From: Hyphomonadaceae bacterium TMED5 | GTDB taxonomy: Bacteria > Pseudomonadota > Alphaproteobacteria > Caulobacterales > Hyphomonadaceae | DNA: 64,000 bases | Direction: 5' to 3' | NCBI GenBank assembly: GCA_002173095.1 | Contig: NHBK01000009.1 | Span: 496,001-560,000 of the forward strand | Shown: one piece after another, positions 7,652-60,018 of the stretch | Numbering within the stretch: position 1 is the stretch's first letter | Layout: the number at the start of each line of letters is the position of its first letter | Translations under genes and position numbers: made by a program | The notes under the pieces: model-generated | Databases searched by the model: none | What the model saw: the letters and a program-made list of their open reading frames with translations, nothing else | Told to the model about the DNA's origin: nothing

Positions 7652-8269
7652 TTATTGGCTCGCCCAGAGTATGCGCGCCATCCATCGCAACTCGTTACGC
7701 GCAGCTTTGCGGACAGGGTAGGCGGGGTTGGCTGAAATCAGTTCGACGGTTTCGTCCGTCATGCGTCCCAGCGTTTTGGCCAGGATTTCACCGTTCAGGG
7801 TTTTCGCAATGATCCGGTCACCGCGACGTATCTGGGCGCCGGGCGCGACGATAACCCGGTCACCCTCCCGGAAGATGGGCTCCATAGAGTCGCCGGTGAT
7901 TTCCAGCGCATAGACGGCTTCATCGCCAAGGCCAGGAAAGCGAATGGTTTCCCAGCCTGAACCCAGCGGAAAGCCGGCATCATCGAAATAGCCATCATTA
8001 CCAGCCTGTGCGAGGCCGATCAGCGGCACGGACCGCCCTGTGCGGCCCTCCACCAGATCGGCAAACTCTTCAAAGGTTGCGCCGACCGCATCAAGGGCGC
8101 GCGAAACAGACTCGGTTGAAGGCCAACGTGCCTTGCCATCGCGTGAGGTGCGTTTGGATTTATTGAAGGAGGTTGGATCAAGGCCCGCAGCGCGCGCAAG
8201 ACCGGATGGTGTTAGCCCGTGGCGGTTTGCCAGAAGATCCAGCCCTTTCCACATATCTGTATGACGCAT
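7652..8269 (-). CDS. HTH/S24 peptidase-type repressor (LexA/CI-like)
   Basis: Start chosen at ATG 8269, with AGGAG six bases upstream, giving 205 residues. The N-terminal helix-turn-helix includes GLTPSGLARAAGLDPTSF (about 18-35). The C-terminal S24 domain has the catalytic Ser in TGDSMEP (S128) and a Lys in ILAKTLGR (K165). An Ala-Gly pair at residues 89-90 could be the autocleavage site. Proteins of this alphaproteobacterial type are LexA/CI-like regulators but not LexA itself. The 146-bp region shared with divergent pyrD has an imperfect inverted repeat (TATGGGTAT/ATACCATA, 8280-8311) that could be its own operator. Confidence 0.85.
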   Translation of the reverse strand: MRHTDMWKGLDLLANRHGLTPSGLARAAGLDPTSFNKSKRTSRDGKARWPSTESVSRALDAVGATFEEFADLVEGRTGRSVPLIGLAQAGNDGYFDDAGFPLGSGWETIRFPGLGDEAVYALEITGDSMEPIFREGDRVIVAPGAQIRRGDRIIAKTLNGEILAKTLGRMTDETVELISANPAYPVRKAARNELRWMARILWASQ

Positions 8270-8415
8270 CCCCAACTCCTATGGGTATGTTTTCCGTTTG
8301 ATACCATAAAGAGTAGGAATATCAACCTATTTTAGGGTTTTCTGAAATGGCGGTTCCCACTGGCCCTGCAAAGGGGTAATTGTGCGCCATATCCGGTGAA
8401 TCGCAGGGGAAAGAG

Positions 8416-9438
8416 ATGTCATTGCTGAAGCTTGGTCAGTCCGTACTCATGCAGTTCGAGCCGGAAACGGCGCATAAGATGACCATCAAGGCACTGAAAA
8501 CGGGTCTTGCCCCTATTCCTGCGCCATTCGAACACGCATCATTGAAAACAGTTCTGCCGAAGTCCGGTATTGAGCTGTCATCGCCTGTCGGGCTGGCTGC
8601 AGGTTTTGACAAGAATGCCGATGTGCCGAGCATGATGTCCCGCTTCGGATTTGGTTTTGTGGAATGCGGAACAGTGACCCCGCTCCCGCAGGACGGAAAC
8701 CCACGCCCGCGCCTGTTCCGCCTGACTGAGGATCGTGCGGTCATCAACCGTATGGGCTTTAACAATGAAGGTCTTGATGTCTTCGTTGCCAATTTGAAGC
8801 GCTATCGCGGCAAAGCGAAACTCGGCGCAAATGTTGGCGCGAACAAAGTCAGCGAAGACAAAATCGCAGACTATGAGACCGGCATTGGCGCGGTCTTCCC
8901 GCATTGCGATTACATCACCATCAATATTTCTTCGCCGAATACGCCGGGCCTGCGCGGCTTGCAGGATAAATCTGCACTGACAGAACTGCTCACACGATGC
9001 GGCGCGTCTGTTGCGGCGGCGGAAAGCGCCAATGGCAAATCAAAGCCGGTCTTCCTGAAGCTTGCGCCTGATCTCGACAGCGTGGCGATTGATGACATTG
9101 TGGGCGTGGTTGAGGCGGCGGGCAGCTGGCTGTCCGGGCTCATTATTTCCAACACGACGCTGGCGCGCCCTGAAACGCTGAAAAGCGAATATAAGGGCGA
9201 AATGGGCGGTCTGTCCGGTGCACCTTTGCTGGCACCTTCGACGGACGTTCTGCGTGCATTTGCTGAGCGTCTGGAAGGGCGTTTCGACCTGATCGGGGCA
9301 GGCGGCATTGCCTGCGCGGCAGATGTGAAAGCCAAACTGGATGCGGGCGCGCACGCAGTTCAGCTATATTCTGCGCTTATCTATGAGGGTGCGGGAATGG
9401 TCGATCAGATCAACCGGGAACTCGCGGTCTCGGCCTGA
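8416..9438 (+). CDS. pyrD: Dihydroorotate dehydrogenase (quinone), class 2
   Basis: The start at ATG 8416 is preceded at 5 bp by AGGGGA; an upstream GTG at 8380 is less likely. The 340-residue FMN protein has the class 2 features: a membrane-associating N-terminal helical segment (LLKLGQSVLMQFEPETAHKM), LAAGFDKNA, NRMGFNNEG, and the catalytic loop with NISSPNTPGLRGLQ, whose first Ser is the class 2 base. GAGGI and the C-terminal VQLYSALIYEG complete the FMN site. It oxidises dihydroorotate to orotate in pyrimidine synthesis, passing electrons to quinone. It stands alone. Confidence 0.96.
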   Translation: MSLLKLGQSVLMQFEPETAHKMTIKALKTGLAPIPAPFEHASLKTVLPKSGIELSSPVGLAAGFDKNADVPSMMSRFGFGFVECGTVTPLPQDGNPRPRLFRLTEDRAVINRMGFNNEGLDVFVANLKRYRGKAKLGANVGANKVSEDKIADYETGIGAVFPHCDYITINISSPNTPGLRGLQDKSALTELLTRCGASVAAAESANGKSKPVFLKLAPDLDSVAIDDIVGVVEAAGSWLSGLIISNTTLARPETLKSEYKGEMGGLSGAPLLAPSTDVLRAFAERLEGRFDLIGAGGIACAADVKAKLDAGAHAVQLYSALIYEGAGMVDQINRELAVSA

Positions 9439-9636
9439 AACACCCCTAAAAACAGCGCCAAATCCGTAAGATGAACGCGATGTCAGATTCTGTTCAGCTT
9501 CAGTTTATGTTGAAATGAATAAGGTCTGCCCATCTTAGGGGCTGCGGACGAATTGGGCGGAACGCCTTAAAAGGGGCTAATAAATTCCGTCTCGGTCTGT
9601 TAACTCTGTTCAATGAACTCAGATCGAGGGGACGAA

Positions 9637-12465
9637 ATGTTCAAGCATAATTCACAATCCTGGATGACGCGCATCACAAGCCAGACAGCAGTAGCGGCAC
9701 TGCTGGCTTTCGGTGCTGCGGGTGTGGCCCAGGCTGAAACCATCACCGGTGCGTTGGAAGAAGGCGACACCGTTGTTGATGGCTATACCGACACGATCGA
9801 GATCGAAGCGAGCGAAGGCGATATGCTGCTCATTGATCTCATGTCAGATGATTTCGATGCCTATCTTTCCGTCGTCACGCCGAGCGGCGCTGAATATTTC
9901 GACGATGACTCAGGCGAGGGTCTGAACTCGCGCCTCATGGTCACAGCGGATGAGGCGGGCACGTTCCTGGTCACCATTTCCAGCTATTATGATGATAGCG
10001 AAGGCGCCTATGAGCTGAGCTATGAAACGCTCGAACTCAATGACGGCACGCCAACCACGATCAGTGCAGATGGTGAAACCCTGATTGGCGAGCTCGTCGC
10101 GGGTGATGGCTTTAATGAGCATGGCTCGTTCTTCGACCTTTATGAGGTCGAGATTGAAGAAGGCATGAACATTTTGTTCAGCCTGGAATCAGAAGAGTTT
10201 GACCCGCTGCTCGCGCTGATCACGCCATCGGGTGAGGAAATCACCAATGATGATTTCGGCGAAAGCTTCAATGCTGGCCTCGTCATGGAAACGGAAGAGA
10301 GCGGCACGTATTCTTTCTACGCGACCAGCTTTAACTCGGGTGAAACCGGCGGCTATACGCTGCGCTATGTCGTAAGCGAAGAGCCATTTGGCGGCGAAGC
10401 GCAGCCTCTGACTTCAGATGCAGATGTCATTGTCGGTGAGATCGCTGAAGGCGACGCCATTCTTCCGGGCGGCAAGCTGGTTGATGTGTTCGCGCTCGAA
10501 ATGGAGCCGGGCAATAGCGTGATGGTGCGTCTGGAATCTGATGATTTCGACACCTTCCTGCGCGTAACTTCTCCATCGGGCGAAGAGTTCACCAATGATG
10601 ATTATGGCGACTCTCTGAATTCCGGCCTCATGCTGACAGCGTCTGAAGCGGGCGCATATGAGATTGAGGTGTCCGGGTATTCTGCATCTGCGCGCGGCGC
10701 ATATATGCTGGATTATACGCTCAGCGAGGAACCGTTTGGTGGCCCGGTTGTCATGCTGGACCCATCAGAGATCAGCCTTGAAGGCGAGCTGGATCTGGGC
10801 GATGGCGCGCGCATTACCGGTGAGCTTTATGACGCCTATTCGCTGGAACTGAGCGAAGGTGACACGCTGGTTGTGTCGCTGGACTCTGACATGTTCGACG
10901 CTTTCCTGACCGTTGTCATGCCGGATGGCGCAGAGGTCATCAATGACGACTTTGGCGATGATCTGAACGCTGCCATCATTACGGATGCACCGGTGGATGG
11001 CACATATATCATTCAGGCCTCCAGCTATAGCGCCGGTGAAACTGGTCCTTACGTGCTGACCTATATGGTTTCTGATGAGGGGATGAGCGGTGAAACGGTC
11101 ACTCTGAATGAAGTGTCGGGTACGATTGAAGGCGAGCTGGATCTGGGCGACGGCTTTCAGTCTGACGACAATACGCTGTTCGATACCTATGAGATCGCCG
11201 TTGATGAGGGTGAAACCCTGATCGTGAGCCTGAGCTCAGATATGTTCGACTCTTATCTCACCCTGATTTCGCCAAGTGGCGAAGAGTTCTATAATGACGA
11301 TTTCGGTGCGTCTTATAACTCCCGGATTGCGCAAACAGCCACAGAGCGTGGTGTTTACACCATTCTGGCCTCTTCGTTTGGCCCAAATGAATCCGGTCCA
11401 TACGAGCTGACCTATTCCGTCAGCGATGAGCCATTGGGCGGCGCACCGGTCGAACTGACGTCAGATGGTGGTACGATTGCAGGTGAGCTGTCCTTTGAAG
11501 ATGGCATTGGCGAAGGCGGCGCGTTCGAGGATCGCTACACCCTCACGGTGGAAGCGGGCCAGCGTATCATTGTCGACATGGAATCTGAGGATTTTGACAC
11601 CTTCCTTCACCTGATCACGCCATCAGGCGATGAGCTTTCCAATGACGATTATGAGGGCAGCCTCGCCCATTCGCGCATTGAACGCACAGCGTTTGAAGCG
11701 GGCACTTACACCATTGTGACGACGGCGTATTCTGAAGGTGAATATGGCGACTATTTCCTGATCTATGACATCAGCGCCAACAACCCGAATGAAATCATTG
11801 AGGGCACGCTCGAAGACGGTGATGAACTTGGCGAAGGCGGTCAGTTCACAGACACTTTCGAAATCGAAGCTGTTGCCGGCGATGAGATCATTATCGACCT
11901 CTATTCTTCTGAGTTCGATACCTATCTAAGCCTGATCGCGCCGGATGGAACAGAGCTGGAAAATCACGATTATTCCGGTCTCGGTCACTCCCGTCTGGAA
12001 GATCGTGCACGTGTCGATGGCACTTATATCGTCACGGTCAGCAGCTATGATGCAGGCGAAACCGGCGGGTATTTCGTGGAATACAGCCAGGAAGAAGGCG
12101 AAGTCTGGGGTGGCCCGGTTACGCCAGTCTCTCCGGTGCCTTACGGCCAGGCGATTGCGGGCACGCTCGATGAACAGGATGACCTTCACATCGATGGCCA
12201 GTATCGCGATGCTTATGCGTTTGAAGCGAGCGAAGGCGAAGCACTGATTTTCGACCTCTTCTCATCTACGTTTGACTCCTATCTCACCGTCATCACGCCA
12301 TCTGGCGAAGAGGTCACAAATGACGACTTCAATGGATCAGTTGATCACTCCCATGTTGAGGTGATTGCTGAAGAAGCCGGTGAATATGTGGTTATCGTGA
12401 CCAGCTTCTCTCAGGATGAAACGGGCGATTACTATCTCGTCGCGGCTGATCGCGGGCTGTACTAA
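9637..12465 (+). CDS. Secreted protein of eight PPC domains
   Basis: Start at ATG 9637, with GAGGGG 5 bp upstream. The 942-residue product has a signal peptide cut after about residue 33 (AQA/ET), and the rest is eight tandem copies of a bacterial pre-peptidase C-terminal (PPC) domain. Each copy carries a variant of EGDxxxxxLxSxxFDxYLxxxxPSG, then NDDxG and a closing GxYxLxY. The protein is very acidic (Asp/Glu-rich), and no catalytic domain is visible. PPC domains usually flank secreted peptidases and may bind substrate or mediate secretion. It is followed by its own terminator and then the PPC-caspase gene, with which it shares domain type and orientation. Confidence 0.85.
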   Translation: MFKHNSQSWMTRITSQTAVAALLAFGAAGVAQAETITGALEEGDTVVDGYTDTIEIEASEGDMLLIDLMSDDFDAYLSVVTPSGAEYFDDDSGEGLNSRLMVTADEAGTFLVTISSYYDDSEGAYELSYETLELNDGTPTTISADGETLIGELVAGDGFNEHGSFFDLYEVEIEEGMNILFSLESEEFDPLLALITPSGEEITNDDFGESFNAGLVMETEESGTYSFYATSFNSGETGGYTLRYVVSEEPFGGEAQPLTSDADVIVGEIAEGDAILPGGKLVDVFALEMEPGNSVMVRLESDDFDTFLRVTSPSGEEFTNDDYGDSLNSGLMLTASEAGAYEIEVSGYSASARGAYMLDYTLSEEPFGGPVVMLDPSEISLEGELDLGDGARITGELYDAYSLELSEGDTLVVSLDSDMFDAFLTVVMPDGAEVINDDFGDDLNAAIITDAPVDGTYIIQASSYSAGETGPYVLTYMVSDEGMSGETVTLNEVSGTIEGELDLGDGFQSDDNTLFDTYEIAVDEGETLIVSLSSDMFDSYLTLISPSGEEFYNDDFGASYNSRIAQTATERGVYTILASSFGPNESGPYELTYSVSDEPLGGAPVELTSDGGTIAGELSFEDGIGEGGAFEDRYTLTVEAGQRIIVDMESEDFDTFLHLITPSGDELSNDDYEGSLAHSRIERTAFEAGTYTIVTTAYSEGEYGDYFLIYDISANNPNEIIEGTLEDGDELGEGGQFTDTFEIEAVAGDEIIIDLYSSEFDTYLSLIAPDGTELENHDYSGLGHSRLEDRARVDGTYIVTVSSYDAGETGGYFVEYSQEEGEVWGGPVTPVSPVPYGQAIAGTLDEQDDLHIDGQYRDAYAFEASEGEALIFDLFSSTFDSYLTVITPSGEEVTNDDFNGSVDHSHVEVIAEEAGEYVVIVTSFSQDETGDYYLVAADRGLY

Positions 12466-12502
12466 GTACAGCGCGGCACGATCGCAATCATATTGAACAA
12501 TC

Positions 12503-12535
12503 AGGCCCTGTTGCTTCGCGCAGCAGGGCCTTTTT
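12503..12535 (+). terminator. Intrinsic terminator after the PPC-repeat gene
   Basis: A 12-bp stem (12503-12514 with 12520-12531, one G-U pair), a 5-nt TTCGC loop and a five-T tract. The rest of the 263-bp gap before the caspase gene holds only AT-rich promoter-like sequence. Confidence 0.85.
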
Positions 12536-12728
12536 ATTTCGAAAATCGTCAGAAAACATCAAATATTAACGAGACTGAATGTGCCGTTCAGCTTTGGTTT
12601 AAGTACGTTTTTGTAATGTCAATCCACGTTGCGGGGGTTGGTAACGGGCGCGTATAAGGTTTCACTACAGGCCTTATCGGTTCGATTAACTTCTGGTAAT
12701 CAGGACGTTAATTCTCAAGGGGGTTCTT

Positions 12729-15383
12729 ATGTTGAATCAGAATACACTCTCCATGCTGAAACGCACGACTGGGACGGTCGGGCTTCTTGCAGGTCTTGCA
12801 ATGGGCATGGCGGGCGTGGCGCACGCACAATCAAATTCCGGTACGCTGTCACGCGGCGACGCGCAGCTTCAAAGCGGCGAATATGTTGACAGCTACACGT
12901 TTAACGTGGCCGCTGGTCAGCAAATCTCCGTTGATCTTACATCCAATGATTTCGACACTTACCTCATTGTGAAGCCGCCTCAGGGCGAGCAGATCGACAA
13001 TGATGACTGGGAAGGCAGCCTCTCGCATTCGCGTGTTGAAACAGTCGCGACGACCGGCGGTACCTATGACGTCCTGGTCACCAGCTTTGCGATTGGTGAA
13101 ACCGGCTCATATTCTCTGAACTTCAACACTGGCGGATATTCTGCGCCATCTGGTGGATATAGCTCTGCTGGCCCGGCGATCACAGGCACGCTGGCGAACG
13201 GCGATGAAACGCTCTCCTCTGGCGAATATATCGACACGTTCGACCTTGGCGCCAATGCTGGCGACACCGTCACCATCGACCTCACTGCAACCGATTTTGA
13301 TCCATATCTTCTGGTCATCGCGCCAGATGGGTCTCAGCTCGAGAACGATGACTGGGAAGGCAGCCTGACTCATTCGCGCATTGAAACTATTGCGCCTGTC
13401 TCTGGTACTTATTCAGTTGGCGTCACCAGCTTTGCGGCGGGTGAAACCGGCAATTACTCACTGGTCTATGATACCGGCGCTGGTGGCTTCCAGACATCAA
13501 CAGGCGGCTCAACGCCATCTTATGCAGGGCTCGCAAACACCTCTGGCTCGCTCGCGCCAGGAGATCAGCAGCTCCAGTCTGGTGAGTATCAGGACAGCTA
13601 TTTCTTCACCGCTCAGCCAGGTCAGTCGATCGTTGTTGATCTCACCTCTGACCAGTTTGATCCATACCTCATTCTGAAACCGCCTCAGGGCGAGCAGCTG
13701 GACAATGATGACTGGGAAGGCAGCCTTTCGCAGTCCCGCATTGAGACCACGGCGACGAGCGCTGGCGAATATGAAGTGGTCGTGACCAGCTTCGCGGTCG
13801 GTGAAACCGGGTCTTACAATCTGCAATATGGCGTTGAGGGTGGCTCTGGATATTCTGGCTATCCGAACCAGAACGCAGGCGGTTTTGGCGGCGCACGCAG
13901 CGAATCCGGCACGCTCGCACGCGGCGATGAGCAGCTCGACGATGGCGAATTCTATGACAGCTACACTTTTAGCGGTCAGGCCGGTCAGCGTATGTCCATC
14001 GAAATGGCCTCTAACGAGTTTGATACCTGGGTTGGCCTGATCGGCGACGACGGTGTGATTGATGCCAATGATGACGCGCCGAATATGGGCACAAACAGCT
14101 TGCTTGAGCTGAACCTGCCATACACGGGTGACTATACGGTCATCGCGACCAGCTATGCGCCGGGTGAAACGGGTGCCTACACGCTGAATATTGGTGGCTC
14201 TTCGTCTGCGCCAACCACGACGCGTCCAACCGCGCCGATCAGCAGCACGAACCAGCTTCAGGTTGGCAGCAGCGTAACAGCCAATCTGTCGTCAGAAGAC
14301 CGTACTTTGTCTGGCGGTGAATACGCGGATATCTACACTTTCACCGCAGAGGCAGGTCAGCCCATTCGCGTTGAGATGAACTCTGGTCCGATTGATACCT
14401 ATCTGGTGGTCAGCGGTCCTGCAGGCTTTGTGGAAGAAAATGACGATTTTGAGGGTAGCCTCGATAACTCTGTCGTTGAGTTCCGCGCGCCAGCAACGGG
14501 TACGTATTCCATCACGGCGACGTCTTACGATGCCGGTGAGACGGGCAATTACACGCTGTCCGTTCTGGATGAAGCAGGTGCACAGCCAACCACGCGCTAT
14601 AACAACAACTCTGCCGGCGGCACGGAAGTCTTTGGTATTTTCGTCGGCATTAGCGACTATCCAAGCTTCTATAACGACCTGCCATACACCGCGCAGGATG
14701 CCGTGCTCGCCCGTGACGCCGTTCGCGACTATGGCAGTATGAATGCGCAGAATTCTATCCTTCTGACCGATAGCCAGGCGACAATGGCGGGTCTGCAGCA
14801 GGCTTTTGCTCAGATTTCGCAACGCATGGACGACGATGACACGCTGGTCTTCTTCTTCTCCGGTCATGGCAGCCGTCAGGACCGTGCAAGCGGCCCGGAT
14901 GATGCGGATCTGGACGGTATTGATGAAACGCTCGTGCTTTATGATCAGGATATCACAGACGATCAGCTGAACGCGCTGTTTGACACTATGCCTTCGGCAC
15001 GCACGCTCATCATTCTGGACTCCTGCTATTCTGGTGGTTTCGCAAAAGACGTGATTTCATCACCGGGCCGGATGGGTCTGTTCTCTTCTGAGGAAGATGT
15101 GATTTCACTTGTTGCGTCGAAGTTTGAAGCTGGTGGCTATCTGGCTCACTTCTTCAATGCGGCTCTGGAAACCGGCGAAGCTGACCTGAATGGTGACATG
15201 CAGGTAGATGCGATCGAGCTCAGCCAGTATCTGCGCACCAGCTATATGCTTGAGCATAATGAGAGCAAACGTCCGCTGCAGCAGTTCGACTCTCTGGACG
15301 ATATCGACGTGACCTATCAGCACCTCGTCGTCGACCGCTCTGGTGTCTCTCCTTACGAGGTCTTCTTTGACCTGAGCCGCTAA
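12729..15383 (+). CDS. Secreted PPC-repeat caspase-like protease (C14, orthocaspase type)
   Basis: ATG 12729 has AAGGGGG 5 bp upstream. The 884-residue product has a signal peptide cut after about residue 33 (AHA/QS), then five PPC domains up to about residue 620 joined by Gly/Ser/Pro/Thr linkers. From about residue 631 there is a caspase-like p20 domain (GIFVGISDYPS). The catalytic dyad is His713 in SGHGS and Cys766 in DSCYSGG. An Asp-rich DADLDGIDE stretch lies between them. A perfect EF-hand-type loop follows the Cys at D819-E830 (DLNGDMQVDAIE), suggesting calcium control. Caspase-like enzymes of this kind cleave after basic residues. Natural substrates are unknown; the adjacent PPC protein is a candidate partner. 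Confidence 0.88.
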   Translation: MLNQNTLSMLKRTTGTVGLLAGLAMGMAGVAHAQSNSGTLSRGDAQLQSGEYVDSYTFNVAAGQQISVDLTSNDFDTYLIVKPPQGEQIDNDDWEGSLSHSRVETVATTGGTYDVLVTSFAIGETGSYSLNFNTGGYSAPSGGYSSAGPAITGTLANGDETLSSGEYIDTFDLGANAGDTVTIDLTATDFDPYLLVIAPDGSQLENDDWEGSLTHSRIETIAPVSGTYSVGVTSFAAGETGNYSLVYDTGAGGFQTSTGGSTPSYAGLANTSGSLAPGDQQLQSGEYQDSYFFTAQPGQSIVVDLTSDQFDPYLILKPPQGEQLDNDDWEGSLSQSRIETTATSAGEYEVVVTSFAVGETGSYNLQYGVEGGSGYSGYPNQNAGGFGGARSESGTLARGDEQLDDGEFYDSYTFSGQAGQRMSIEMASNEFDTWVGLIGDDGVIDANDDAPNMGTNSLLELNLPYTGDYTVIATSYAPGETGAYTLNIGGSSSAPTTTRPTAPISSTNQLQVGSSVTANLSSEDRTLSGGEYADIYTFTAEAGQPIRVEMNSGPIDTYLVVSGPAGFVEENDDFEGSLDNSVVEFRAPATGTYSITATSYDAGETGNYTLSVLDEAGAQPTTRYNNNSAGGTEVFGIFVGISDYPSFYNDLPYTAQDAVLARDAVRDYGSMNAQNSILLTDSQATMAGLQQAFAQISQRMDDDDTLVFFFSGHGSRQDRASGPDDADLDGIDETLVLYDQDITDDQLNALFDTMPSARTLIILDSCYSGGFAKDVISSPGRMGLFSSEEDVISLVASKFEAGGYLAHFFNAALETGEADLNGDMQVDAIELSQYLRTSYMLEHNESKRPLQQFDSLDDIDVTYQHLVVDRSGVSPYEVFFDLSR

Positions 15384-15402
15384 GCGACTGAAACTTCAAT
15401 TG

Positions 15403-15431
15403 AAAGCCCGCCTTCAAGGCGGGCTTTTTTT
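15403..15431 (+). terminator. Intrinsic terminator after the caspase gene
   Basis: Stem AAAGCCCGCC (15403-15412) and GGCGGGCTTT (15418-15427) with a 5-nt loop, running into a T-tract, 20 bp after the stop codon. Confidence 0.9.
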
Positions 15432-15482
15432 GTGGAGGCATTTTGATTTCAATCCCTGCCTGAAGGGGCTCGCCCTATCGTT

Positions 15483-15537
15483 GAATCGATTCGACGACCT
15501 GTGGATAACTTCGCTAGCCTGTTAACGGGACGTTAAC
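15483..15537 (+). promoter_or_regulatory. Composite GANTC, DnaA-box and CtrA-box region
   Basis: Within 55 bp there are three motif types. A 10-bp palindrome GAATCGATTC (15483-15492) is two abutting GANTC sites. A consensus DnaA box lies on the minus strand (TGTGGATAA, 15500-15508). A CtrA-type TTAA-N7-TTAA follows (15522-15525 and 15533-15536). The CtrA box ends 14 bp before the glycosyltransferase start, which fits repression better than activation unless the true start is further downstream. Motifs are seen directly; their function is inferred from Caulobacter cell-cycle control. Confidence 0.55.
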
Positions 15538-15550
15538 GAGGTGGGCAGTG

Positions 15551-17056
15551 ATGGCAGATGGCTGGGGGGCAGCTCCGCATTCAGGCGGTTTGAAATCTTA
15601 TTCCCGGAAGCATATTTCAGATCAGCGTGCGTTCTGGCGTGAGCATGCTGAAACCTATCTGCGTTGCGCCTTTCCAAAGGCATCCTGTGCGGGCGGGCTC
15701 AGTGCGGGACAGCTAAAATGGCTAGGTCGCACAGGAGCCATGTCAGGGCTGGCGGCACTCTACGCGCCGGACATTGCGCTTGGCACGGTTCAGTCGCTGG
15801 CATTTATCGCTTTTGCGCTCATCATTCTCTACCGTTTTTTGCTTGTCCTGATTGGTGCTGCGGGCCGGGGCAGACCGACGAGCCCGGATTTAAAGGGCAG
15901 GGACACCAGCGATAGGCTTTGGCCAAAATATACGCTTCTTGTGCCCGTTTTCAGAGAGCCAGCCGCCGTTTCAAACCTCATAACGGCGCTGGAGAGGATA
16001 GATTATCCCGTCTCACAGCTGGAAGTGTTCATCCTGCTTGAGGCATGTGACGGCGAGACATTGAATGCGCTGAATGCATGCGCGCTGAAACCGCATTTTC
16101 AAATTCTGCAAGTGCCGGAGGGCGAACTGCGGACAAAGCCACGCGCGCTGAATTACGGGCTTCAACAGGCGAGCGGGCAATATGTGGCCGTGTATGATGC
16201 CGAAGACGCCATGCATGCGAGCCAGTTGAAAGATGCGGTCCGGGCGTTTCAGGCCTCTGAAGAACTCAACCGCCAGCCACCGCTTGCCTGCGTGCAAGCG
16301 CCACTTATTCCGCATAATGGTGGGGAGAGCTGGATATCCGGCCAGTTCGAGGTGGAGTATCTGGTGCAATTCGGTCTGGTCGTGCCGGCGCTCTGTAAGC
16401 TCAAACTGCCCGTTCTTCTGGGGGGTACCAGCAATCATTTTCGTAAGTCTGTGCTCGAAGATGTTGGCGGGTGGGACCCGCACAATGTGACAGAGGATGC
16501 CGATCTTGGCCTGCGTCTGGCACGGCATGGCTATCGGGTCGGGGCGATTGCCCCGCCAACCTATGAAGAAGCGCCGATTGGCGTGATGCCATGGGTGAGA
16601 CAGCGCTCGCGCTGGATTAAAGGGTTTTTGCAGACAGCTTGTGTGTTCTTCAGAGTGTCGCCCGCGCGGGCCATGCAGGAAATGGGCGCGCTCAACTATG
16701 TGTCGGCCAGTCTGTTACTGCTTAGCGGCATCGTCTCAGCGCTTGTGCATGGCCCCCTTTGTCTGTGGCTTTTGGCGCAGATTATCGTACCGGGCTGGCA
16801 CGCGCCGGAAAGCGCCATCGCGCTCTGTGTTTCTGGTCTGTCCATGCATTTGCTCGCAGGCGCTTTGATCAGTTCTGGGGGTGGGGTGAGGCGATGGCTG
16901 AGCATACTCAGTGCGCCAGCCTATTGGCCGCTCCAGACAATCGCGGCCGGCAAGGCAATCTGGGAACTGAAATCAGCCCCTTATTTCTGGGATAAAACCG
17001 ACCATGGCGTCACCCGTGCCCACCTCGACCCGGATATGCTTGTTCGGGCTATGTGA
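15551..17056 (+). CDS. Membrane glycosyltransferase family 2 (BcsA/XagB-like)
   Basis: Start at ATG 15551, with GAGGTGG upstream. The 501-residue protein has an N-terminal soluble stretch, membrane helices around residues 76-100, and a GT-A domain with YTLLVPVFREP. The catalytic signature is complete: EACD, YDAEDA (DxD-like), TEDADLGLR (TED) and RQRSRWIKG (QxxRW). Two or three more membrane helices follow, then SAPYFWDKTDHG. This is the architecture of processive polysaccharide synthases of the cellulose-synthase or XagB type, so it likely makes a surface or exported glycan. No PilZ domain is seen. The composite cell-cycle motif cluster lies directly upstream. Confidence 0.85.
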   Translation: MADGWGAAPHSGGLKSYSRKHISDQRAFWREHAETYLRCAFPKASCAGGLSAGQLKWLGRTGAMSGLAALYAPDIALGTVQSLAFIAFALIILYRFLLVLIGAAGRGRPTSPDLKGRDTSDRLWPKYTLLVPVFREPAAVSNLITALERIDYPVSQLEVFILLEACDGETLNALNACALKPHFQILQVPEGELRTKPRALNYGLQQASGQYVAVYDAEDAMHASQLKDAVRAFQASEELNRQPPLACVQAPLIPHNGGESWISGQFEVEYLVQFGLVVPALCKLKLPVLLGGTSNHFRKSVLEDVGGWDPHNVTEDADLGLRLARHGYRVGAIAPPTYEEAPIGVMPWVRQRSRWIKGFLQTACVFFRVSPARAMQEMGALNYVSASLLLLSGIVSALVHGPLCLWLLAQIIVPGWHAPESAIALCVSGLSMHLLAGALISSGGGVRRWLSILSAPAYWPLQTIAAGKAIWELKSAPYFWDKTDHGVTRAHLDPDMLVRAM

Positions 17057-17063
17057 AGCCGGA

Positions 17064-18251
17064 TCAAACATCATCATCCGGATGGTCGATTTTCTCTGAC
17101 ATACCAGAATCTTGCTCGGGCGCAGGAGACTCCGTCGGCGTTGGTACGGCACTGGTCTCATCAATGTGCAGCAAGCCACGACGACGTGGCAGGGCGCCCG
17201 GATGATCAGACTGCAGCCAGGCAATCATCTTCTCGCGGATCTCACAGCGCAAATCCCACGCAATGGGTGAGTTCTTGGCGCTCATCAGCCCGCGCAGCGT
17301 CATGGTTTCTTCTGTGGTATCGATGACCTGCAGAACGGCCACATCACCATCCCAGCGTTCACTCTCCTTGAGCAGAGACTGAAGCTTTTCACGTATGTCG
17401 CCGACAGGTGCGGTGTAATCCAGATGCCAGGTCACACTGCCAATGATGGAGGAATTTTCGCGCGTCCAGTTCTGGAACGGCTTTTCGATCACCTGTGTGA
17501 GCGGCACAACAAGGCGTCGCCAGTCCCAGATTTTGACCACCACATAGGTGGAGGTGATTTCATCAATCCAGCCCCATTCCCCTTCCATAATGACAGCATC
17601 GCCAATGCGTATGGGCTGGGTGAGGGCGATCTGAATACCTGCCAGAAGATTGGACAGAACGGGTCGGGCCGCAAAGCCAATTACAATGCCCGCAACACCG
17701 GCAGAGGCAAACAGCGAGATGCCAATCGAGCGAACGCTTGGAAAGGTCATCAGCATGGCCGCCAGTGTGATGAGCAGGATGAGCATGGTCATCATACGGC
17801 TCAGCACATTCATGCGGGTGGAGATTTTGCGCGCCTCAAGATTGTCTTCTGCGGAAAGGTCATATTTCTGCAGCCGCGCATCTGTAACGGCGTTGACGAG
17901 TTGATTGAGCAGCCAGCCGCAAACACCGATCAGAACAATGATGATGACCCGGTCAATGATCACCCGCCATTCATCTGGCATGCTGACCATGGGCAGCACC
18001 ATTTCAGCCGCCAGAATGGCGATCCCAATGCGAGAGACCGTGCGGGTCTTTCTAAGCATGCGAAAGAACAAACGGTCTGAGGATTTGCCGCTCGCGCGCA
18101 TTAGCAGGGAGTAAATGATTGCATGAACTATAATCGCCACAATGACAGCGCCAGCCAGTGAAGCGAAGGCGATCAGGTTGTCACCATTGATCTCTTCGAC
18201 CATGTCGGTGACGGGTTCCATGAATTCTGCTGTGGGCGAAGGTTCTGCCAT
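17064..18251 (-). CDS. MscS-family mechanosensitive channel
   Basis: A 395-residue inner-membrane protein with four or five helices. The pore-lining TM3 region ASAGVAGIVIGFAARPVLSN (about residues 182-201) is followed by the MscS beta domain with QPIRIGDAVIMEGEWGWIDE and TQVIEKPFQNWTR. The C-terminal tail after residue 370 is a short Pro/Asp-rich extension. It should open under osmotic downshock, releasing solutes. The gene converges on the glycosyltransferase with only 7 bp between stops. Confidence 0.9.
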   Translation of the reverse strand: MAEPSPTAEFMEPVTDMVEEINGDNLIAFASLAGAVIVAIIVHAIIYSLLMRASGKSSDRLFFRMLRKTRTVSRIGIAILAAEMVLPMVSMPDEWRVIIDRVIIIVLIGVCGWLLNQLVNAVTDARLQKYDLSAEDNLEARKISTRMNVLSRMMTMLILLITLAAMLMTFPSVRSIGISLFASAGVAGIVIGFAARPVLSNLLAGIQIALTQPIRIGDAVIMEGEWGWIDEITSTYVVVKIWDWRRLVVPLTQVIEKPFQNWTRENSSIIGSVTWHLDYTAPVGDIREKLQSLLKESERWDGDVAVLQVIDTTEETMTLRGLMSAKNSPIAWDLRCEIREKMIAWLQSDHPGALPRRRGLLHIDETSAVPTPTESPAPEQDSGMSEKIDHPDDDV

Positions 18252-59142: not shown

Positions 59143-59850
59143 CTATTCAAGGTCTGAGGCGATACCGTATCCGGTCATGCTCCAATAGACGATGCCGGGG
59201 ACGTTCATTGCTTCGCTGAACAGAACCCATGCGCGCGTTGCAGTATCGTCGTCGCATGTGATGAGTGCCCAGAGATGCTCTTCCAATGGCGTCTCATCTA
59301 CTTCCAGATATGTGTACAGGTCTGTCAGGTCGACCGCATAGCGGACACCGTCTACCGCCATTTCCCCGAAGCCTTCGCCATAATATCGCAGGACGGTGAC
59401 AGTATCGCCCGGCGTCAAATCCAGTATTTCATCCTGCTCAGGATCATCCACAAGCCAGACCTGAATGCTGGTTTCGGTATTCACGCGCTGAGGCAGGGTC
59501 TGATTGGCGACGATAAAATAAAGGTCGTCGGTTTCTACGCGGTCATGATTCCATTGATGAATGGTCGCGCTCTGGTCCAGCGGGCAGGACAGATCTGGCG
59601 GGCCGGAGGGATCAGGCTCAAAGCGTGCGGGAAGAATGACATTGGCGCCTTCGACGGAGAAACCATCCGGATATTCGCCGGGCCATAGCTCATCCACATT
59701 CCAGTTTTCACCGTAATACCCAGAGACGACCTCAAGCGGAGGAATATCGGCGGGTGGAGAGCCTGCGGGACGAGAAGCTGTCGGGGCGTCTGTTGTTGGC
59801 TGGCAGGCGCAAAGCGTGAGTGCGAAAAGTGAGGCGTAAACTTGTTTCAA
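59143..59850 (-). CDS. Hypothetical lipoprotein
   Basis: Not recognised. TTG 59850 is chosen as start: GGGGGA lies 5 bp upstream and it gives a compact lipoprotein signal (LFALTLCACQ, Cys16), whereas the longer ATG frame adds an uncharacteristic leader. The 235-residue product is acidic, Trp-containing and beta-rich after a Pro-rich linker (about residues 23-40). Function unknown. Confidence 0.65.
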   Translation of the reverse strand: MKQVYASLFALTLCACQPTTDAPTASRPAGSPPADIPPLEVVSGYYGENWNVDELWPGEYPDGFSVEGANVILPARFEPDPSGPPDLSCPLDQSATIHQWNHDRVETDDLYFIVANQTLPQRVNTETSIQVWLVDDPEQDEILDLTPGDTVTVLRYYGEGFGEMAVDGVRYAVDLTDLYTYLEVDETPLEEHLWALITCDDDTATRAWVLFSEAMNVPGIVYWSMTGYGIASDLE

Positions 59851-60018
59851 TGTCGTCCCCCATAGACTTTCTGAACCAGACAGGCCTTCCATTCTGGTCG
59901 CGCCAGATAAGCCCTGCTAAACCAGCCATAAATCAGTTCGCAGGGAACTGAAATGACTGATAAACTGTTGGTCTGACAGACCTGTTTCAAAATCAAAACA
60001 CTAAGGCTCAAAACCTGT

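Follow-up and report, generated by a model that had tools for sequence, protein, structure and literature searches.

A window of 64,000 nucleotides (the whole stretch analysed; contig NHBK01000009.1, positions 496,001 to 560,000 of the forward strand) from Hyphomonadaceae bacterium TMED5, whose genome belongs to the genus of Ponticaulis koreensis, carries three successive open reading frames (ORFs) on the + strand, here called genes 1, 2 and 3, with pyrD on one side and an MscS-type channel gene on the other. An initial annotation, made from the letters alone, had read them as one block encoding a secreted repeat protein, a secreted caspase-like protease sharing its PPC domains, and a polysaccharide synthase; the ORF listing confirms three consecutive genes on one strand. 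The features discussed are given below in window positions.

8380-9438: pyrD, Pfam DHO_dh
9492..9510, + strand: 19-bp box GTTCAGCTTCAGTTTATGT, 145 bp before gene 1; moderate evidence
9637..12465, + strand: gene 1, secreted acidic PPC-only protein of 942 aa, signal peptide and eight PPC domains (residues 38-130, 151-245, 267-361, 383-477, 499-594, 616-711, 723-817, 842-937)
12503..12531, + strand: intrinsic terminator-like hairpin after gene 1, listed by the terminator scan
12586..12604, + strand: matching box GTTCAGCTTTGGTTTAAGT, 143 bp before gene 2
12729..15383, + strand: gene 2, secreted PPC-caspase of 884 aa, signal peptide, five PPC domains (residues 38-133, 153-248, 273-368, 394-489, 518-613) and Peptidase_C14 domain (residues about 631-884)
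14865..14867, + strand: codon of catalytic His713 of gene 2
15024..15026, + strand: codon of catalytic Cys766 of gene 2
15183..15218, + strand: EF-hand-like loop DLNGDMQVDAIE of gene 2 (residues 819-830), between two caspase-domain helices
15404..15431, + strand: hairpin and T-run after gene 2, seen by eye and not listed by the terminator scan
15548..17056, + strand: gene 3, GT2 membrane glycosyltransferase, a neighbour judged to lie outside the unit
17064-18251, - strand: MscS-type channel gene

A longer ORF of gene 1 spans 9613-12465, but the start at 9637, also chosen in the initial annotation, is preferred because GAGGGG lies just 5' of it and the block ahead of it is kept in three relatives. 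Pfam detects PPC in gene 1 at an E-value of 1.7e-36 (six stretches, 125.3 bits against a cut-off of 25.9), and a profile of PPC derived from the window's own sequence delimits eight domains in gene 1 and five in gene 2. From residue 36 onward the protein holds 202 Asp plus Glu against 18 Lys plus Arg, and it begins like a signal peptide (those of genes 1 and 2 were judged by eye), so that its description as an acidic, secreted protein of eight PPC domains stands. Searching the gene 1 sequence against solved structures gave no useful match. Modelled gene 1 domains matched the PPC domain of a collagenase (5sv5; Z 13.1, 101 residues aligned, 2.2 Å) and the collagen-binding domain of ColG (1nqj; Z 12.7, 95 aligned, 2.0 Å), and the gene 1 model also resembled PliG lysozyme inhibitors; because of these likenesses, protein binding is the safest suggestion for PPC function. 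Membership of the PPC family is indicated by profile scores over the cut-off in both proteins and by the beta-sandwich fold matched by gene 1 domains. A marginal Pfam match to Calpain_III (21.6 bits, cut-off 21; residues ~912-934, or 920-942 of the ORF starting at 9613) overlaps the last PPC domain and perhaps reflects a related beta-sandwich fold. The genome as a whole contains a single C14 match; of its eleven PPC matches, ten are inside genes 1 and 2. In a pairwise search, identity between the C-terminal third of gene 1 and PPC domains 1-3 of gene 2 is 44-45%. A simple tandem duplication of gene 2 is nonetheless unsupported as the source of gene 1, as the gene 1 domains do not fall inside the gene 2 ones in a domain tree (93 columns, many weak nodes), where gene 1 domains 1-5 group, with weak support, with PPC-only proteins of other genomes and not with gene 2.

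In gene 2, Pfam identifies both PPC (1e-30, five stretches, 106.8 bits against 25.9) and Peptidase_C14 (2.3e-11, 44.3 bits against 21.4); the latter match spans only positions 6-139 of the 233 in the profile, and the structural model also aligns to the C-terminal parts of metacaspases, two observations that point different ways on the lack of a p10 domain by which orthocaspases are told from metacaspases. The modelled caspase part (about residues 629-884, with a predicted local distance difference test score, pLDDT, below 50 at 788-802 and 844-865) aligned with Arabidopsis metacaspase 4 (6w8r; Z 20.3, 214 residues, 2.9 Å) and with bacterial GSU0716 (3bij; Z 19.2, 203 residues, 3.0 Å), and alignment to metacaspases at Z 18-20 identifies the predicted fold as that of a caspase. 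A classical PPC protease tail, C-terminal to the peptidase, is not what was found: all five PPC domains precede the C14 domain.

Relatives of gene 2 were collected with a subfamily profile built from 17 caspase domains, at cut-offs of 1e-25 or 1e-50; the genome counts include search centres and known carriers, and in some genomes part of the first-look candidates were scored. Members were found in 38 of 398 genomes of the order (which we take to be Caulobacterales), in 7 of 398 of the phylum sample, in 7 of 244 of the class around genome G783 (here labelled Rhodothermota, presumably aptly, after its Rhodothermaceae/Rubricoccaceae members), and in 1 of 397 of the class around the Planctomycete G785, this one being the centre genome itself. 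The 56 domains compared comprise four from Ponticaulis, 32 others of the order, one from a further alphaproteobacterium, one from a gammaproteobacterial metagenome-assembled genome (MAG), four from Myxococcales/Deltaproteobacteria MAG proteins, ten from Rhodothermota and four from Planctomycetes; partial matches in G605 and G687 were left out, and weaker C14 matches (5e-26 to 6e-16) lay outside the PPC check. Every one of the 56 caspase domains lies C-terminal to at least one PPC domain, in the same PPC-then-C14 order as in gene 2, which shows the coherence of the group rather than an absence of PPC-less members, because the profile was made from PPC-caspases.

The His713/Cys766 dyad that the initial annotation had called intact in a five-PPC secreted protease is invariant in 56/56, the window protein included, and the assignment is thereby upheld. 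Asp657 and Asp764, equated by motif with T. brucei Asp95 and Asp211, form the predicted acidic S1 pocket and are likewise invariant in 56/56. The EF-hand-like loop is helix-loop-helix in the gene 2 model and follows the strict pattern in 46 of 56 PPC-caspases. It was discarded as a hallmark of the subfamily, since similar loops, placed after the catalytic Cys, are also present in three of the six further bacterial C14 proteins recovered (motif search, 11 loci), which makes it a broader bacterial C14 feature. No conserved self-cleavage site was seen ahead of the caspase domain, window Arg623 being Pro in three relatives. From sequence and structural model together, gene 2 is predicted to be a Sec-exported cysteine endopeptidase of the metacaspase/orthocaspase fold, with the activity that its conserved residues would confer.

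Most discussion of bacterial caspase homologues treats them as proteases that act inside the cell in stress or death. That gene 2 itself works intracellularly, in programmed death or anti-phage defence, is nevertheless very improbable. A generic PADLOC caspase model does match gene 2 at 1.8e-14, and cell death comes up in the discussion of bacterial caspase homologues in PMC3501461. However, four gene 2 orthologues have signal-peptide-like starts and three Rhodothermota relatives lipobox-like ones, Pfam finds no sensor domain in gene 2, and the EACC1-associated caspase model NF047832 reaches 46.3 bits, far under its cut-off of 140.

Gene 3 matches Pfam GT2 families, with E-values down to 9e-23, and has DAED and QRSRW motifs, which we take to be markers of processive GT2 enzymes. 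The earlier designation as a processive-type membrane glycosyltransferase can thus be kept as to family and motifs, with the processive part presumed from the motifs. Although GT2 families are shared with the processive synthases CelA, PgaC/IcaA and EpsU, gene 3 falls far below the curated cut-offs of the corresponding models (cellulose synthase, 63.2 against 699.1 bits; PNAG synthase, 56.6 against 422.3; EpsU, 42.2 against 700). At 15522-15536, just 5' of the gene, stands TTAA-N7-TTAA, a putative site resembling the CtrA consensus.

The pair of PPC genes was followed in related genomes by a search of 61 of them, the source genome included, with gene 2. Thirteen matched: seven with a PPC-caspase, three with a C14 domain and no PPC match in the locus, and three with PPC only. 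Of the seven genomes of the genus, four have genes 1 and 2 side by side and in the remaining three neither was detected, and no PPC-caspase was found in the 30 other genomes of the family searched. In two of the non-carriers, 280 and 274 bp separate the parts of pyrD and the glycosyltransferase that were matched; in the third (G002) an unrelated histone-deacetylase-like gene stands between the two. Adjacency in carriers, together with joint absence where pyrD and the glycosyltransferase are close together, marks the PPC pair as a discrete unit, and it is probably a real one. The initial annotation had let its proposal hang on whether the two genes are neighbours in related genomes; since they are so in 4/4 carriers of the genus, with an analogous arrangement in Rhodothermota, the proposal survives this check.

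The same comparison separates gene 3 from the pair. The glycosyltransferase is present in 7/7 genomes of the genus, with or without the PPC genes, and in the carrier G006 (Ponticaulis MAG SP186) an insertion that carries an IS1595-type transposase along with other ORFs (L089:2863-7986) interrupts it, while the PPC pair remains open. It therefore lies outside the unit and is an older, unrelated neighbour, and the grouping of all three genes as one block had to be given up. A surface matrix in which a polysaccharide made by the glycosyltransferase is decorated by both PPC proteins has some appeal, as the genes are consecutive in the window and close together in G001 (P. koreensis) and G004 (UBA1849), and as the site before gene 3 hints at cell-cycle control; with a distribution of 7/7 against 4/7 and the broken copy in a carrier, it is highly unlikely.

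Beyond the genus, a separate PPC-only gene with a signal-like start was found directly upstream, on the same strand, of 8 of the 56 PPC-caspases, in three lineages: four in Ponticaulis, three in Rhodothermota (G782, G783, G961) and one in a genome of the order (G632). The Rhodothermota clusters resemble the window in this arrangement and differ from it in having two small 2-PPC genes each, one with a lipobox-like signal, with no clear orthology to gene 1 in the domain tree. The G632 locus (L153) was counted as one companion, its second PPC piece appearing degenerate; an ORF of L045 with one weak PPC match (8.7e-5), some 3 kb downstream of the protease, was left uncounted. Two further candidates were set aside. 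The PPC-only fragments in the Planctomycete locus L053 correspond to the N-terminal region of a PPC6-C14 protein whose frame is uninterrupted in L054, and comparison with L151 suggests that L150 holds a PPC5-C14 gene with a broken frame. Among the 61 related genomes, a PPC-only protein accompanies the PPC-caspase in 7/7 carriers, which fall in two genera, against 3/54 others (Fisher 2.8e-7, kinship ignored). No conserved third partner was seen beside PPC-caspases; in the 25 largest clusters of neighbouring ORFs (43 loci), only the protease itself occurred in more than seven loci. The Planctomycete MAGs at L053 and L054 each have two PPC-caspase genes near one another, which are arranged head to head in L054 and share a strand in L053.

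As to expression, the initial annotation had given each gene its own terminator or promoter. Hairpins do follow genes 1 and 2, and both recur by eye in three relatives; no excess of terminators or promoters over shuffled sequence was found in the scan (4 against 6.2 and 3 against 5.5, respectively). The boxes upstream of genes 1 and 2 are identical at 16 of 19 positions, and by eye three closely similar relatives retain that of gene 2, one mismatch away from the pattern. In the 3.55 Mb genome the derived pattern occurs only at these two sites at 0-1 mismatches and at one more at two, and up to three mismatches it gives 11 matches against 4 for a reversed control; as the pattern was derived from the two sites, their agreement with it is no independent test. 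Of the 990 gene pairs in the window, two others reach the same 16/19 and none exceeds it, and the shared box was therefore not accepted as strong proof of co-regulation; it is a lead rather than proof.

Whether the protease would cut its neighbour was considered from the composition of gene 1. The two S1 aspartates of metacaspases are tied to basic substrate residues, that is to Arg/Lys specificity, in the relevant passages of PMC6426788, and the conserved pair in gene 2 would likewise predict Arg or Lys at P1. Processing of the repeat protein by the caspase, as put forward in the initial annotation, would free PPC units or mature a surface layer; signal-like starts and adjacency of both genes are consistent with it, and, according to how the domain boundaries are drawn, two or three linkers of gene 1 in the three relatives contain an Arg. 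However, these are not conserved in the window protein, whose seven inter-domain linkers contain no Lys or Arg at all, and no linker Lys/Arg is conserved across the four gene 1 orthologues. The eight conserved arginines of gene 1 are one in the signal peptide and seven within predicted PPC domains. Because the pocket would want Arg or Lys and the linkers offer none, the processing proposal is unsupported, and on these sequence grounds cleavage of gene 1 by gene 2 appears unlikely.

The shortage extends over the whole of gene 1. Lys plus Arg (K+R) make up 1.9% of its PPC array, 2.3% of the PPC part of gene 2 and 5.5% of the caspase part, as compared with 8.1-9.1% in six PPC-only proteins elsewhere; six Rhodothermota companion proteins average 4.1% in their PPC domains (range 2.6-6.6). 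With its signal peptide included, gene 1 has the lowest K+R of 42 ORFs in the window, at 2.2% against a median of 9.9%. This low content argues against processing in the linkers and fits a partner that is spared.

Taken together, these findings lead us to infer a joint function for genes 1 and 2, and to favour, tentatively and at somewhat under even chances, a two-gene module of an exported protease with an exported non-catalytic partner. The gene 2 protein would be exported via Sec and would cut after Arg or Lys through its acidic S1 pocket, while its five PPC domains may hold it on protein or surface ligands, by comparison with the PPC domains of another secreted protease. Gene 1, exported in parallel, may bind the same kind of ligand and so act as scaffold, anchor or competitor for the protease; being poor in Lys and Arg, it would be largely spared rather than processed.

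Several observations weigh against such a module. The full-length models of the two proteins have low predicted template modelling scores (pTM; 0.38 and 0.34) and consist of domains joined by low-confidence linkers. The carriers are each other's closest relatives (77-78% by pyrD, against 68-73% for non-carriers), so that presence and absence in the genus may reflect a single gain or loss. Forty-eight of the 56 PPC-caspases showed no separate PPC-only gene directly beside them, although several contigs end nearby (e.g., L144, L148, L155). The PPC-only gene lies elsewhere in the genome, away from the protease, in G037, G041 and G057, and PPC-only proteins occur without the protease in G038, G046 and G054. 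In the relatives, the only likeness of the gene 1 box seen by eye has three mismatches and falls within the last part of pyrD. In G632 (L153) the companion pieces, within 6.1-8.4% K+R, are not depleted in Lys/Arg, and low Lys/Arg is also seen in other ORFs of the window (an unassigned ORF, 3.2%; a TonB receptor, 4.6%), so that export or marine life may explain part of the composition of gene 1.

Much of this would be expected if the two were an independent PPC surface protein and an independent protease, placed together by one acquisition or by local shuffling, with PPC shared simply as a common export or binding module. About a one-in-three prospect in our judgement, this explanation accommodates the PPC-caspases that lack such a direct neighbour, the PPC-only proteins that lack the protease, the hairpins that separate the genes, and the grouping, weak as it is, of gene 1 domains 1-5 with foreign PPC-only proteins. 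It accounts less readily for same-strand upstream PPC-only genes that recur in three Rhodothermota genomes and G632, for the joint absence in three non-carriers, and for a similar upstream box at the same distance. A stronger form of the two-gene module, in which a calcium-switched (through the EF-hand-like loop) exported Arg/Lys caspase sits on a Lys/Arg-stripped PPC scaffold and cuts other proteins while sparing itself and its partner, and which arose in Ponticaulis and Rhodothermota, is a long shot: the low K+R of the Rhodothermota companions would fit it, and the G632 companion does not.

With regard to origin, the caspase tree (midpoint rooted; supports of 49-71 at deep nodes within the 32-sequence group of the order) places Ponticaulis with the gammaproteobacterial MAG (ultrafast bootstrap 100) and next with Rhodothermota (96); the other 32 sequences from the order fall elsewhere. 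Horizontal acquisition of gene 2 is the simplest reading, since its nearest relatives are a MAG of another class and Rhodothermota and not its own order, and judged from this tree it is likely, though some care is called for as the closest of these relatives is a MAG. No trace of a recent transfer is seen in composition, the G+C content of genes 1 and 2 being 53.6 and 55.2% against 54.6% for the window. Under the two-gene module, a Ponticaulis sublineage probably acquired the pair in one piece, between pyrD and the glycosyltransferase, a direction suggested by presence and absence and by the tree.

Compared with known systems, gene 2 shares with orthocaspases and metacaspases (AtMC4, 6w8r/6w8s; GSU0716, 3bij) the His-Cys dyad, the acidic S1 Asp pair and the caspase fold, and differs from them in its N-terminal PPC array and signal peptide. 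The word PPC is absent from the main text (supplements aside) of surveys of bacterial caspase homologues, and a literature search for PPC with caspase homologues, with supplements and most subscription journals outside its reach, returned no description of the architecture. Other known proteases carry PPC after the peptidase. In metalloprotease E495 of Pseudoalteromonas the PPC domains serve to bind protein substrates, one of them increasing the catalytic efficiency towards proteins (PMC3327674), whereas the PPC domain of Vibrio cholerae Lap is inhibitory and removed (PMC10709122). E495, Lap and the clostridial collagenases share the Pfam PPC family and fold with genes 1 and 2, and a DxDx(aromatic)-like stretch here resembles, by eye and with a putative mapping, the protein-binding residues D26/D28/Y30 of E495. 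In those enzymes, however, PPC follows the peptidase and, for E495 and Lap, is removed in some or all mature forms; here it is N-terminal in an array of five (gene 2) or stands alone as eight (gene 1). A coherent caspase subfamily that is fused to PPC and looks exported, in some lineages along with a non-catalytic PPC partner, would place proteases of the caspase fold on the cell surface. With the pair, the marine culture-collection strain Ponticaulis koreensis DSM 19734 would offer a simple two-gene system for testing their role there.

Among the other genes of the window, a Peptidase_S24 (LexA/CI-like) repressor gene adjoins pyrD at 7652-8275 (- strand), and a clearly similar ORF stands beside pyrD in L088 and L089. 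A 249-aa ORF at 59143-59892 (- strand) has 3.2% Lys/Arg and no Pfam match at 0.001. The histone-deacetylase-like gene changes place within the genus, occupying the gap between pyrD and the glycosyltransferase in G002 (L088:1983-2948) and that between the glycosyltransferase and mscS in G006 (L089:1892-2866); in the window the latter two are only 7 bp apart, which leaves no room for it there.

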